Shown here: positions 7,759 to 63,998 of the stretch, piece by piece
How the letters are laid out: every line of letters begins with the position of its first letter
How positions within the stretch are numbered: the first letter of the stretch is position 1
Origin: Lysobacteraceae bacterium
GTDB taxonomy: Bacteria > Bdellovibrionota > UBA1018 > JAGTJX01
NCBI GenBank assembly: GCA_023657465.1
Contig: JAGTJX010000003.1
Span: 862,830-926,829, forward strand
Length of the DNA stretch: 64,000 nt
Direction of reading: 5' to 3'
Program-made: the position numbers and the translations under genes
Notes under the pieces: generated by a model
Databases searched by the model: none
What the model was told of the DNA's origin: nothing
The model's input: only the letters and a program-made list of their open reading frames with translations

Positions 7759-8504
7759 TCGCGCGTCTAGGTCAGCTTTCTCTTTTCATCGTTCAAATTC
7801 ACCGAGCGTTATTTAGGAATCTCTCCCTTGTAAAGCGAATCATCACCGTGACTGCAGACATCACACTACAGGCGCTTCCTACAGTGATGTTCTCAGGAGC
7901 ATTCGTAGGAGCGATCCTCGTCCTTCAGTTCAATGAAGTACTCTCACAATACGACGCTGTGAGCTTCTTAGGTGGCCTCAATACTTCTGCACTCATCCGG
8001 GAAGTAGGTCCTCTCATCATCTCATTCTTACTAGCAGGTAAAGTCGGCGCTTACATCGCTGCTGAGCTAGGCACGATGCGAGTCACTGATCAGATCGATG
8101 CGATCGATTGCTTGGGCACTGATTCAGTAGAATATCTCGTAGTCCCAAGATTTTTCGGGATCATTGGTGCATCACAGATCCTCTTAGGATTCGGACTCAT
8201 GGCTGGAGTCGTGGGATCACTTCTCATTGCGATTTATGTTTGCGATATGAACGCACTCCAATTCGCTGGAAGCATTCCTAGATTTGTGAGTATCTCCACC
8301 CTCATCTCAGGATTCATTCGTTCTGCGCTTTATGGGTTCATTGTCGCGTCCGTGAGTTGCTTCGAAGGTTTCTTCGCGACCAATGGTTCACGAGGAGTAG
8401 GCATAGCCGTGACACGCACTGCGATCTTCACTAATCTCTACATCGTCATTGCTAATGCATTGAGCTCCCAGTGGATACGTTTACTCTCTGGAGACGTGCG
8501 ATGA
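7755..8504 (+). CDS. mlaE: MlaE-family permease, first copy
   Basis: Inner-membrane permease subunit of the MCE transporter. I start it at TTG 7755, which overlaps the preceding TGA as TTGA and has AGGG five bases upstream; this gives 249 residues, the usual MlaE length. An N-terminal interfacial helix is followed by about five membrane helices. The family hallmark REVGPLIISFLLAGKVGAYIAAELGTMRVTDQIDA is visible around residues 80-115. The next gene encodes a second, clearly different MlaE. Confidence 0.9.
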   Translation: MIARLGQLSLFIVQIHRALFRNLSLVKRIITVTADITLQALPTVMFSGAFVGAILVLQFNEVLSQYDAVSFLGGLNTSALIREVGPLIISFLLAGKVGAYIAAELGTMRVTDQIDAIDCLGTDSVEYLVVPRFFGIIGASQILLGFGLMAGVVGSLLIAIYVCDMNALQFAGSIPRFVSISTLISGFIRSALYGFIVASVSCFEGFFATNGSRGVGIAVTRTAIFTNLYIVIANALSSQWIRLLSGDVR

Positions 8505-58456: not shown

Positions 58457-59185
58457 TTAGTCTGCTGGAGTAAATCGAAGTAACCGATAACCCATCATAC
58501 CTAGAGTGCTAGTATCAGCATTATCTGTAAAAGATTCACAATCACTGATGTATTGATCCCCTTCCATGTTGTAAACGACTGAACATTCATACTTGTCCTT
58601 CTCATTTGGAATGACATCTACGACTGTTACCCAATGCCAATTCGTTAGCGAGTATTTAAGTAAAACTGGAGTGGGTTGAATTAAAACCGAATAAACACCA
58701 CGGTTTCGACTTGCAGTTGGATTAGCATTTGGAAATTTAGACCAATACAAAGTTGCTTTCAGTTCTAATAAAAACTCATTTGATGTCTCAGGCTTTACAA
58801 CTGACCATTCACCTTTTGGACAAAAGAGTGCTGTGTATTGACGCTCACTAAAGAGTTTTTTGAGTGTTTTTTTCAATGTTTTAGGCTGCGAACCAGGAGT
58901 GAGGTCATACGCTCCGTAAGCCTCTACACCCTTAGGAGAGACATGTTTTCCGCACATCATAGTCGTAATATTAGCTGCAGCTGTTTGGCCGCACTTACCT
59001 TCATATCCAGAAAACTCAGGAACGGGCTGTGGGCTAGAAATTGTTTCATCAGGGCAAACATGAAGAGTTGCTTTCTCCATGAGAGGCTTTATTCCCTGAT
59101 CATAGTTAGTAATTTTTTTTGAGCAAAGCACGACCTTAATTTCAGCATAAGAAGCAAAACTGAATAAAAAAACAAACAGCATCAT
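58457..59185 (-). CDS. Secreted papain-like (C39-type) protein
   Basis: 242 residues with a signal peptide (MLFVFLFSFASYA). GKCGQTAAANITTMMCG (Cys65) and TNWHWVTVVDV (His184) followed by a Asp/Asn-containing strand form the Cys-His arrangement of C39/papain-like peptidases. Several further cysteines suggest disulfides in the periplasm. Substrate unknown. It lies 15 bp upstream of the extended ExbB frame. Confidence 0.6.
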   Translation of the reverse strand: MMLFVFLFSFASYAEIKVVLCSKKITNYDQGIKPLMEKATLHVCPDETISSPQPVPEFSGYEGKCGQTAAANITTMMCGKHVSPKGVEAYGAYDLTPGSQPKTLKKTLKKLFSERQYTALFCPKGEWSVVKPETSNEFLLELKATLYWSKFPNANPTASRNRGVYSVLIQPTPVLLKYSLTNWHWVTVVDVIPNEKDKYECSVVYNMEGDQYISDCESFTDNADTSTLGMMGYRLLRFTPAD

Positions 59186-61362: not shown

Positions 61363-61734
61363 TTAGTTCGACTCAGTATCAGTCTGATCGAGGATCACAT
61401 GAGCAAGCTCAAGATCTGTGACTTGCTCGTCTAGCTTCTTGAACTCATCGGACTCGCGCATCTTGCTCATCAATGATCGAAGTAACTCTGAAGAGCCTTC
61501 GCCTTCGTTCATGATGAATATTGCTGCGTCTTCAGCGATGACATTCATCGCAGCTTCTTTGTTCTTCGAAGATTCCTGAACTGATCCTGTATCAGAAGCA
61601 ACCAAGTAAACCGCAACTGCTGTCACAGCTAGTCCACCAATCGTTGTCCATGTGAGTGTCGAGAGTGCCTGGGCTCTCGGAGCAGAAACACTGAGGGTAA
61701 CGATGGTCAAGAGTGACAAGATTAAGTTTTTCAT
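61363..61734 (-). CDS. Small secreted protein, paralogue of the gene at 63651
   Basis: 123 residues with a signal peptide (LSLLTIVTLSVSAPRAQA), a short hydrophobic segment (IGGLAVTAVAVYLVA) and a conserved C-terminal region NVIAEDAAIFIMNEGE...LRSLMSKMRESDEF, DLELAHVIL. The same blocks occur at 63651-63998. It follows the Lnb/zincin gene and may serve it. Function unknown. Confidence 0.7.
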   Translation of the reverse strand: MKNLILSLLTIVTLSVSAPRAQALSTLTWTTIGGLAVTAVAVYLVASDTGSVQESSKNKEAAMNVIAEDAAIFIMNEGEGSSELLRSLMSKMRESDEFKKLDEQVTDLELAHVILDQTDTESN

Positions 61735-61780
61735 AGGGCCAGCGTATCCGTGAACTGAAGCACGGTCAAGCTGCAGAGGG

Positions 61781-63607
61781 TTACTCTAATTGCTTCAAAA
61801 TCCACTTACGAAAGAGAGTTTTATTGGCCTGAATATTCCTCAGCTCCTCTAGCTCTGACTTGAAAAGAGCTTCAAGTATCTTCCTCAGCTCAGGTGAACT
61901 GATTCCAGCGCTCTGCGTATGATCAGGTATCACCTCCAACCACTCGCCCACTAATGGAATTCCGTAACCTGGCTGGATCATCTTCCAAGGTTGTCGTTCC
62001 TTGAGCTCAAGTGAGAGTCTATCGACTTCTTTTTTGACCTCAGAATTTGTGTCTTCCATTTGTTGAAGAACATGCTTCTCGAATTCTTTGTTTTTAGAAT
62101 ATTCGACTGAAGACTCAATGATGAATGCAGCTGCTGCGATTTTTTCTCGACGTGCAGAGTCTGCGACAATTCTCGCTCTCACATGATCTCGCCTCTCAAT
62201 TGCACCCAGGACAAAATATTTTTCCTGAGTCACTCCAAGAATACCTAAAGCAGAATCGAAGTCCGCCTTCTTGGAACGAAACACTGTTTTGCTCGCCTTG
62301 TCGACCCAACCTGATTTGATCAGTGTCTTATAAAACTTTTTAGGAGTGAGTGTATGAAGACCCGATCCTGTTACACTCTCGTCTGCAACTTTCATAAGAT
62401 GAAGCGATTCTGTACCGCAGTTGTTGGTGATGAAAGTGTATTTACCGAGATATCCCCAGTAGGACTCAATCGTTGATTCAATGAAAGCTTGCTTCTCAAG
62501 CTCAGTGAATTGAATGGGAAGACTGATGAGATCACGCATCTCTTCCTTCGTGTATTCAGTGATGACTTCAGAGAAGGGTATGAGGAACATCTTCGAGGGA
62601 TACTTGCCTATAATGCCCTTGATGTAATTGATCATGATGTCTGAAACATTGGCTCTATAACTAATAACGACATGGTACGCGACGTCGTTACGACACTCAG
62701 GCCCTACGGTTTTGCGCTCGGGAGCACAGATGATTAGTCTAAACATCGCATGTCCCCACTTGCTCATTGCAGCTGTACCCGTATCTGCATAGAGATAATG
62801 AACCTCAGCGATACGTGCAGGATTAAGATCAGAAGTGATCTTCAAGTCCAAGTTGGGATTACGTGAACTGAGCTTCACAGTGGTCTGTGGTTTGCATGAT
62901 CTCGAACCTGCAAAAGGATCTGAGAAGTGCTCTAAGAAGTATCCTTGAAGAGCAGGACGTCTACATGCGAACTCAGGATCAAGTAGGAAGTATTCGAAGT
63001 TTACTGCGAGTGCTTCTCTGGGGTTTTTTAACTCATAACGATCTGGACTGCGTGCTCCTAATTTGTTCTTTTGAGAAAGGGGTGTGTAGAAACCCATGAA
63101 TACGAGATCGCTCCACCACTTGTGCAACTTCTGAAAGCGTGTGAGCGCGCGGAAGCGAGAATTAATCGAGAGCTTCATGACCGAATCATAGATGTGCATC
63201 CATTCATGTATGAGGGTAGCGACAGCAAGTCTATATCCCGTTCTATGACCGCAGCCGTACTGAGTAGAATCGTTCTCGCCTAATTGGATCTCATCCAAAA
63301 GCCCTGAGTGGATTTTGATGATGGGAGCTGAAAGAGGAAGGTCAGTGGTGTGACCATAGAAGAGTCGGCCTTTAGGTTTAGGATCAGACTCACTCACGAC
63401 ACAAAGAGGAAGGCCAAACTCACGGCTTCCTAATTTCTTAAATTTGATAGTGAATGCTACCGGACTGACGAGAGTGCGCTGAACCTGAATGGGGAGTCTT
63501 CTCCATGAGTCCTGAATCCAGGCCTGAACATATGCCGGCTTTTCTGCTGATTGAGCAGAATGAGGAATCAGACTATAAAAAAGAAGAAGCCCCGCGTTAA
63601 CTAACAC
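61781..63607 (-). CDS. Secreted zincin-like plus Lnb/DUF4105 two-domain protein
   Basis: 608 residues from GTG 63607 (no ATG nearby), with a signal peptide (LLLFYSLIPHSAQSA). An N-terminal domain carries VATLIHEWMHIYDS, an HExxH zinc-binding motif near residue 135. The C-terminal half is DUF4105/Lnb: YLYADTGTAAMSKWGHAMFRL (His near 287) and FITNNCGTESLHLMK (Cys near 395), the pair used by lipoprotein acyl-transferring Lnb enzymes. A helical tail follows (about 480-608). I infer an envelope enzyme; which domain is active needs testing. Flanked by two paralogous small secreted proteins. Confidence 0.75.
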   Translation of the reverse strand: MLVNAGLLLFYSLIPHSAQSAEKPAYVQAWIQDSWRRLPIQVQRTLVSPVAFTIKFKKLGSREFGLPLCVVSESDPKPKGRLFYGHTTDLPLSAPIIKIHSGLLDEIQLGENDSTQYGCGHRTGYRLAVATLIHEWMHIYDSVMKLSINSRFRALTRFQKLHKWWSDLVFMGFYTPLSQKNKLGARSPDRYELKNPREALAVNFEYFLLDPEFACRRPALQGYFLEHFSDPFAGSRSCKPQTTVKLSSRNPNLDLKITSDLNPARIAEVHYLYADTGTAAMSKWGHAMFRLIICAPERKTVGPECRNDVAYHVVISYRANVSDIMINYIKGIIGKYPSKMFLIPFSEVITEYTKEEMRDLISLPIQFTELEKQAFIESTIESYWGYLGKYTFITNNCGTESLHLMKVADESVTGSGLHTLTPKKFYKTLIKSGWVDKASKTVFRSKKADFDSALGILGVTQEKYFVLGAIERRDHVRARIVADSARREKIAAAAFIIESSVEYSKNKEFEKHVLQQMEDTNSEVKKEVDRLSLELKERQPWKMIQPGYGIPLVGEWLEVIPDHTQSAGISSPELRKILEALFKSELEELRNIQANKTLFRKWILKQLE

Positions 63608-63615
63608 AGGGCTTC
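63573..63615 (-). terminator. Intrinsic terminator or attenuator overlapping a start codon
   Basis: On the minus strand GAAGCCCTGTG (63615-63605) pairs along 11 bp with CGCGGGGCTTC (63596-63586), with an 8-base loop and TTCTTTTTTAT following. It terminates the 63651 gene, but the GTG start of the Lnb/zincin gene lies in the stem and the T-run encodes part of its signal peptide. Confidence 0.8.
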
Positions 63616-63650
63616 TATATCGAACTTAAAATTTTAGGTCAATTTAAAAA

Positions 63651-63998
63651 CTATTGCTCGAGAGCAAGTTCAGACTGATTGAGGATAGCGCGAGCGAGAT
63701 CCATATCAGTGATTTCTTCGTCGATTTTCTGCATATCTCCATTTGCTCTCATTTCATCCATCATCGAGCTCAAGAGAGCTGATGGGTTCTCGCCATCGTT
63801 CATGATGAAAGCTGCTGCATCGTCAGCAACTACGTTAAGAACAGCTTCTTTACCACCTGAAGAGGCCTGAACAGAAGCGACTCCACCTGCTAAAAAGTAG
63901 GTAAGAACAAGTCCTGCTGTTGTACCCAAAATTGTAATGGCTACATCAGAAATTGCGTGTGCTTTTGGAGGAGCTACAAATAGAGTTGCTGCCACCAT
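63651..63998 (-). CDS. Small secreted protein, possibly cut at the N-terminus by the window edge
   Basis: At least 115 residues. The visible start (MVAATLFVAPPKAHA) is the hydrophobic end of a signal peptide lacking its basic residues, so the true start probably lies beyond 64000. Shares NVVADDAAAFIMNDGE, SSMMDEMRANGDM and DMDLARAIL with the gene at 61363. Upstream of the Lnb/zincin gene and separated from it by a terminator-like hairpin. Confidence 0.7.
   Translation of the reverse strand: MVAATLFVAPPKAHAISDVAITILGTTAGLVLTYFLAGGVASVQASSGGKEAVLNVVADDAAAFIMNDGENPSALLSSMMDEMRANGDMQKIDEEITDMDLARAILNQSELALEQ

Follow-up and report, generated by a model that had tools for sequence, protein, structure and literature searches.

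What could a secreted enzyme with two candidate active sites be doing between two small secreted proteins? The question is raised by a group of three genes at the end of a window of 64,000 nucleotides (the whole stretch of DNA that was analysed). An earlier note had described one secreted chain with the zinc site HEWMH and the His/Cys pair of DUF4105/Lnb, flanked by small secreted proteins, and had suggested a conserved envelope system, perhaps for remodelling of lipoproteins or peptidoglycan. We analysed the three genes, their counterparts in related genomes, and the linkage between them.

Organisation of the locus

The open reading frames of the window confirm a minus-strand triplet, a two-domain enzyme gene with a small secreted gene on each side. 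The enzyme (61781..63607, minus strand) starts at a GTG codon and has 608 aa. A predicted signal peptide MLVNAGLLLFYSLIPHSAQSA is followed by the domains DUF7844 (PF25226) and Lnb_N (PF13387, formerly DUF4105), in this order. The downstream gene (61363..61734, minus strand) encodes a small secreted DUF2388-like protein of 123 aa. The upstream gene, encoding a small secreted DUF2388 protein, is partial in the window (63651..63998, minus strand). Its full coding sequence reaches window-equivalent position 64031, 31 bases beyond the window edge, where the ATG codon is found (position 8031 of locus L002), and it encodes 126 aa (L002:7651-8031). Within this genome, the enzyme and partner families were found at this locus only, the enzyme in a single copy. 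Small proteins on both sides, as described earlier, are thus present here; the relatives often have one, on either side and on either strand.

The two partners are diverged DUF2388 paralogues that are 44% identical. Their proposed paralogy stands, but the shared block EDAA(I/A)FIMN needs a correction, as the upstream protein has DDAAAFIMN and not EDAAAFIMN. The upstream partner matches PF09498 (E 2.5e-6) with 27.8 bits, above the Pfam gathering cut-off of 25, but does not reach the cut-off of the other DUF2388 model, TIGR02448. The downstream partner scores 16.9 bits, below the Pfam cut-off of 25; in the profile search of genomes it was retrieved at E 7e-25, being itself a seed of the profile. 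Of 20 partner proteins, 13 match PF09498 with E no higher than 0.1, the best value being 6.9e-24. At the start of the mature partner there is a hydrophobic segment, and after it a conserved helical block with the pattern D-A-A ... L ... R ... S-D-x-E-(I/L)-A.

A strong intrinsic-terminator-like hairpin (63585..63616, minus strand; -22.7 kcal/mol, z -4.0) lies between the upstream partner and the enzyme. It consists of 14 pairs followed by the T run TCTTTTTT, and the GTG start codon of the enzyme is inside it. If the hairpin terminates transcription, in this genome the upstream partner and the enzyme may be produced at different levels. Conservation of such a terminator was considered and rejected, since besides the window the same arrangement was seen in locus L111 only.

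Two other secreted proteins are encoded in the vicinity. Just upstream of the partner (L002:8126-9724) there is a protein of 532 aa with a papain-like motif QGESSWCAHF and no Pfam match. A protein of 242 aa (window positions 58457-59185) contains GKCGQTAAAN and is perhaps cysteine-peptidase-like; it has no match in Pfam or NCBIfam.

Two candidate active sites in the enzyme

The domain DUF7844 (PF25226, E 1.5e-28) extends approximately over 62921..63520 of the minus strand. Its zinc motif HEWMH is formed by residues 134-138 (63194..63208, minus strand), and HExxH is intact in 69 of the 82 homologous loci. The candidate third zinc ligand is Glu198 (63014..63016, minus strand) in the segment NPREALAVNFEYF, which is aligned with the segment PAECFAVLSEYF of MtfA; Glu is found here in 76 of 82 loci. 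The similarity to MtfA is weak. A profile of 11 homologues (A1) compared with the MtfA structures 9srw and 3dl1/3khi gave E about 0.005; HExxH, the Asp after it and the downstream Glu all fall in register. Five of the 11 homologues matched Peptidase_M90 (PF06167; best E 2.8e-4), which was not among the matches listed for the window protein up to E 1. Three matched NF011939, the MtfA model of NCBI (best 0.006). Based on this alignment and on the model matches of the homologues, we interpret DUF7844 as a divergent gluzincin of the MtfA/M90 type that is exported, and the domain thereby gets a likely gluzincin active site. Unlike MtfA (family M90), the window enzyme is exported and fused to Lnb_N. 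AlphaFold2 models built from two sequences each had pLDDT 32 for the enzyme and 45 for the partner.

The second half of the enzyme, residues 258-430 (62318..62836, minus strand), is a permuted NlpC/P60-type domain, Lnb_N (PF13387, E 1.3e-18). The putative catalytic residues are His286 in SKWGHAMFR (62750..62752, minus strand) and Cys397 in NNCGT (62417..62419, minus strand), each kept in 80 of 82 loci. Given this conservation, together with that of HExxH and of the downstream Glu, the motifs do not arise by chance. The zinc site and the Lnb His/Cys pair are indeed present in one secreted chain, as the earlier note had it, and are conserved over the 82 homologous loci.

A 2026 paper assigns DUF4105 to a permuted, lipid-directed group of NlpC/P60 domains, and reports it to be the enzyme Lnb, which N-acylates lipoproteins in Bacteroides (PMC12994826). 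One could therefore suppose that the enzyme is an Lnb-type lipoprotein N-acyltransferase as in Bacteroides, with which it shares the Lnb_N domain with conserved His and Cys. However, this is very unlikely. The same genome contains a full Lnt gene (G000:C2:103436-104659; TIGR00546, 254 bits against a cut-off of 132.9). No transmembrane segment was found in the 82 enzymes, using 19-residue windows with hydropathy of at least 1.8 beyond residue 90; the use of a membrane domain as a criterion for Lnb follows from the Pfam name 'N-terminal periplasmic domain'. Finally, the window protein gave no match to NF051878, the equivalog model for Lnb, and of the 11 homologues one matched it, at only 0.02. 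For these reasons the enzyme is probably not a substitute for Lnt, and on the same observations standard lipoprotein remodelling is not supported as the role of the system. In contrast to Bacteroides Lnb, it lacks a membrane segment, carries an N-terminal zincin, has a DUF2388 partner, and is encoded alongside Lnt. It may share the chemistry of Lnb; we do not apply the name Lnb to it. The other suggested role, peptidoglycan remodelling, received no support, the permuted group to which DUF4105 belongs being directed to lipids (PMC12994826). The Pseudomonas gene PA3786 was considered as a DUF4105 gene and dropped, as it is a gene of 390 bp.

Linkage and joint divergence of enzyme and partner

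Among the gathered loci, 61 of 63 matches of the partner profile lie at most 600 bp from the enzyme gene. They come from 52 loci and occur on both sides of the enzyme and on both strands; loci without DUF7844 are excluded from this count. A profile of 20 partners was then compared with 290 genomes of the phylum, giving 79 matches in 48 genomes. At least 60 of these 79 DUF2388-like matches are within 2.6 kb of a DUF7844 gene. This is a lower count, because the places of DUF7844 were taken from listed matches: for example, the partner match in genome G127 adjoins an enzyme gene truncated where the contig ends (E 0.0046). The survey of gene neighbourhoods proposed in the earlier note, for which absence of co-occurrence between the small family and DUF4105 would have counted against the proposal, thus revealed co-occurrence.

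DUF7844 itself is carried by 87 of the 290 genomes, which makes the unit a frequent one in this phylum. When the genomes that supplied profile members are left out, it is present in 27 of 30 partner-bearing genomes and in 42 of 242 others (Fisher p 2e-15, an optimistic value because the genomes are related). The profile was built from enzyme-linked members, and thus the search favours such members. In three genomes the partner was found without a DUF7844 match, and several genomes have extra orphan copies. Orphan DUF2388-like genes occur away from any DUF7844 gene, e.g. four in G153, and thus the partner may also act alone. One orphan gene is located beside a gene for a secreted HELTH protein (L161:2767-4170), weakly similar to the putative metallopeptidase family DUF6782. 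No relatives were observed in viral contigs. In plasmids, DUF2388 had no match, and all relatives seen there were DUF4105 ones lacking DUF7844.

The enzyme and the partner diverge together. Pairwise identities of enzymes and partners in 52 loci are correlated (Mantel r 0.82, with none of 2000 permutations as high), and the correlation is retained when only enzyme identities below 0.6 are considered (r 0.73). In genomes with two or more loci, a partner is closer to the partner of the nearest enzyme elsewhere than to the other partner of its own genome; this held for 18 of 18 comparisons, among which there is some dependence. An alternative explanation for such linkage would be vertical inheritance of mere neighbours with no functional link, and the genomes in the analysis are indeed related rather than independent. 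However, the partners are found on either side and strand, at median identities of 20% for the partner and 28% for the enzyme, and they follow paralogues rather than genomes; this already disfavoured explanation is highly improbable. Within this one phylum, the enzyme is usually encoded beside a small secreted partner that is inherited with it as a unit. Linkage and joint divergence give strong support to a conserved envelope system composed of a zincin-Lnb fusion together with a small secreted partner.

Fast divergence, duplication, orphan copies and correspondence with the enzyme clade are also features of immunity genes. Further, the sister clade of DUF4105 is the phospholipase toxin Tox-Act1 (PMC12994826), which shares with it His/Cys chemistry on acyl bonds. 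The enzyme might then be a lipase with an antibacterial or prey-directed role, against which the DUF2388 proteins would confer immunity. We consider this improbable, as inspection by eye of the ORFs that surround the window gene revealed no secretion-system or polymorphic-toxin gene, PADLOC gave no match, no toxin-delivery domain was found, and the enzyme is present in a single copy in this genome. Also, it is common for a partner gene to be on the opposite strand. Thus, in contrast to Tox-Act1, neither a toxin-delivery module nor a neighbouring secretion system is seen around the window enzyme.

Possible role of the partner

The natural loss of either active site allows one to ask which half of the enzyme the partner serves. 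At five loci (L129, L136, L137, L139, L140) HExxH is lost while His and Cys of the Lnb domain are intact, and all five retain a DUF2388-type partner. At two loci of one genus (L049, L050) the situation is reversed: both Lnb His and Cys are lost, HExxH is kept, and no partner was detected. As the partner is kept after loss of the zinc site and is undetected after loss of the Lnb residues, this suggests that the half of the enzyme it serves is Lnb and not the zincin, on the evidence of few lineages, the case of the dead Lnb domain being a single one. This natural dissociation points to the Lnb domain as the target of the partner.

Several loci have other neighbours. The enzymes without Lnb His and Cys are directly adjoined by genes for a matrixin-like secreted metallopeptidase (L049:5111-5893, L050:7362-8144). 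In some loci the DUF2388 partner is replaced by long secreted helical repeat proteins rich in Ser, Ala and Thr (L098:5388-6326, L099:5473-6351, L100:5504-6508, L141:4829-5728, L144:1789-2637 and L145:4364-5650). In Pseudoalteromonas and Salinivibrio, a different small secreted protein, DUF3015, is encoded directly upstream of a DUF4105 gene without the zincin (L146:2068-4419, L147:1803-4258), which likewise points to the Lnb half. This parallel is only positional, because no relation of DUF3015 to DUF2388 was detectable: DUF3015 as a remote relative of DUF2388 was rejected, since the profile comparison aligned the signal peptide only, and its appearance in the iterated partner profile was treated as drift.

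One possibility is that the small proteins are substrates, being acylated by the Lnb domain or cleaved by the zincin, so that a secreted protein is anchored or released. The partners adjoin the enzyme, are exported, and are sometimes present in several copies (L114, L087); their N-terminal parts are diverse and rich in Ser, Thr and Ala, as are, in Ser and Ala, the unrelated replacements, and the orphan copies are consistent with several substrates for one enzyme. On the other hand, no invariant Ser, Thr, Lys or Cys was found in the aligned partner block, so a nucleophile common to all partners is lacking there, and the persistence of partners despite loss of the zinc site means that cleavage by the zincin is not required. 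On balance, a role as substrates is rather unlikely. In a more specific version, a soluble periplasmic transferase of the Lnb type would have the DUF2388 proteins as its dedicated acyl acceptors. This would give exported proteins a second route of lipid modification that does not depend on the lipobox pathway of Lgt, Lsp and Lnt, and the zincin fused to the transferase would trim the enzyme or the substrate; we regard this as a long shot. The lack of an invariant nucleophile in the block speaks for binding and not for one fixed acylation site, and we therefore prefer a regulator that binds to an acyl acceptor with a single site as the role of the DUF2388 protein.

Tentatively, and from sequence comparison, we propose that the enzyme is a soluble exported protein that hydrolyses or transfers acyl groups, carries a zincin module, and has a cognate DUF2388 regulator at its Lnb half. 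The enzyme would be exported and act as a soluble periplasmic or secreted protein. The Lnb domain would form a thioester on Cys397 and hydrolyse or transfer fatty-acyl groups of lipids in the envelope, and the zincin domain could be an accessory module for processing or binding. The DUF2388 protein would bind the Lnb half as the cognate regulator, either an inhibitor or a membrane-docking subunit.

In the literature searched, with subscription journals mostly outside the search, we found no publication linking DUF2388, DUF4105 and DUF7844, and no mention of DUF7844; DUF2388 and DUF4105 are named in two papers each. DUF2388 gains a proposed partner, none having been found in the same literature. 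The locus thus ties together, as one testable unit, three families of which little is understood: DUF7844, DUF2388, and the DUF4105/Lnb superfamily outside Bacteroides. The genomes with DUF7844 seem to include Bdellovibrio-like predators, in which enzymes acting on envelope lipids matter for prey entry and growth.
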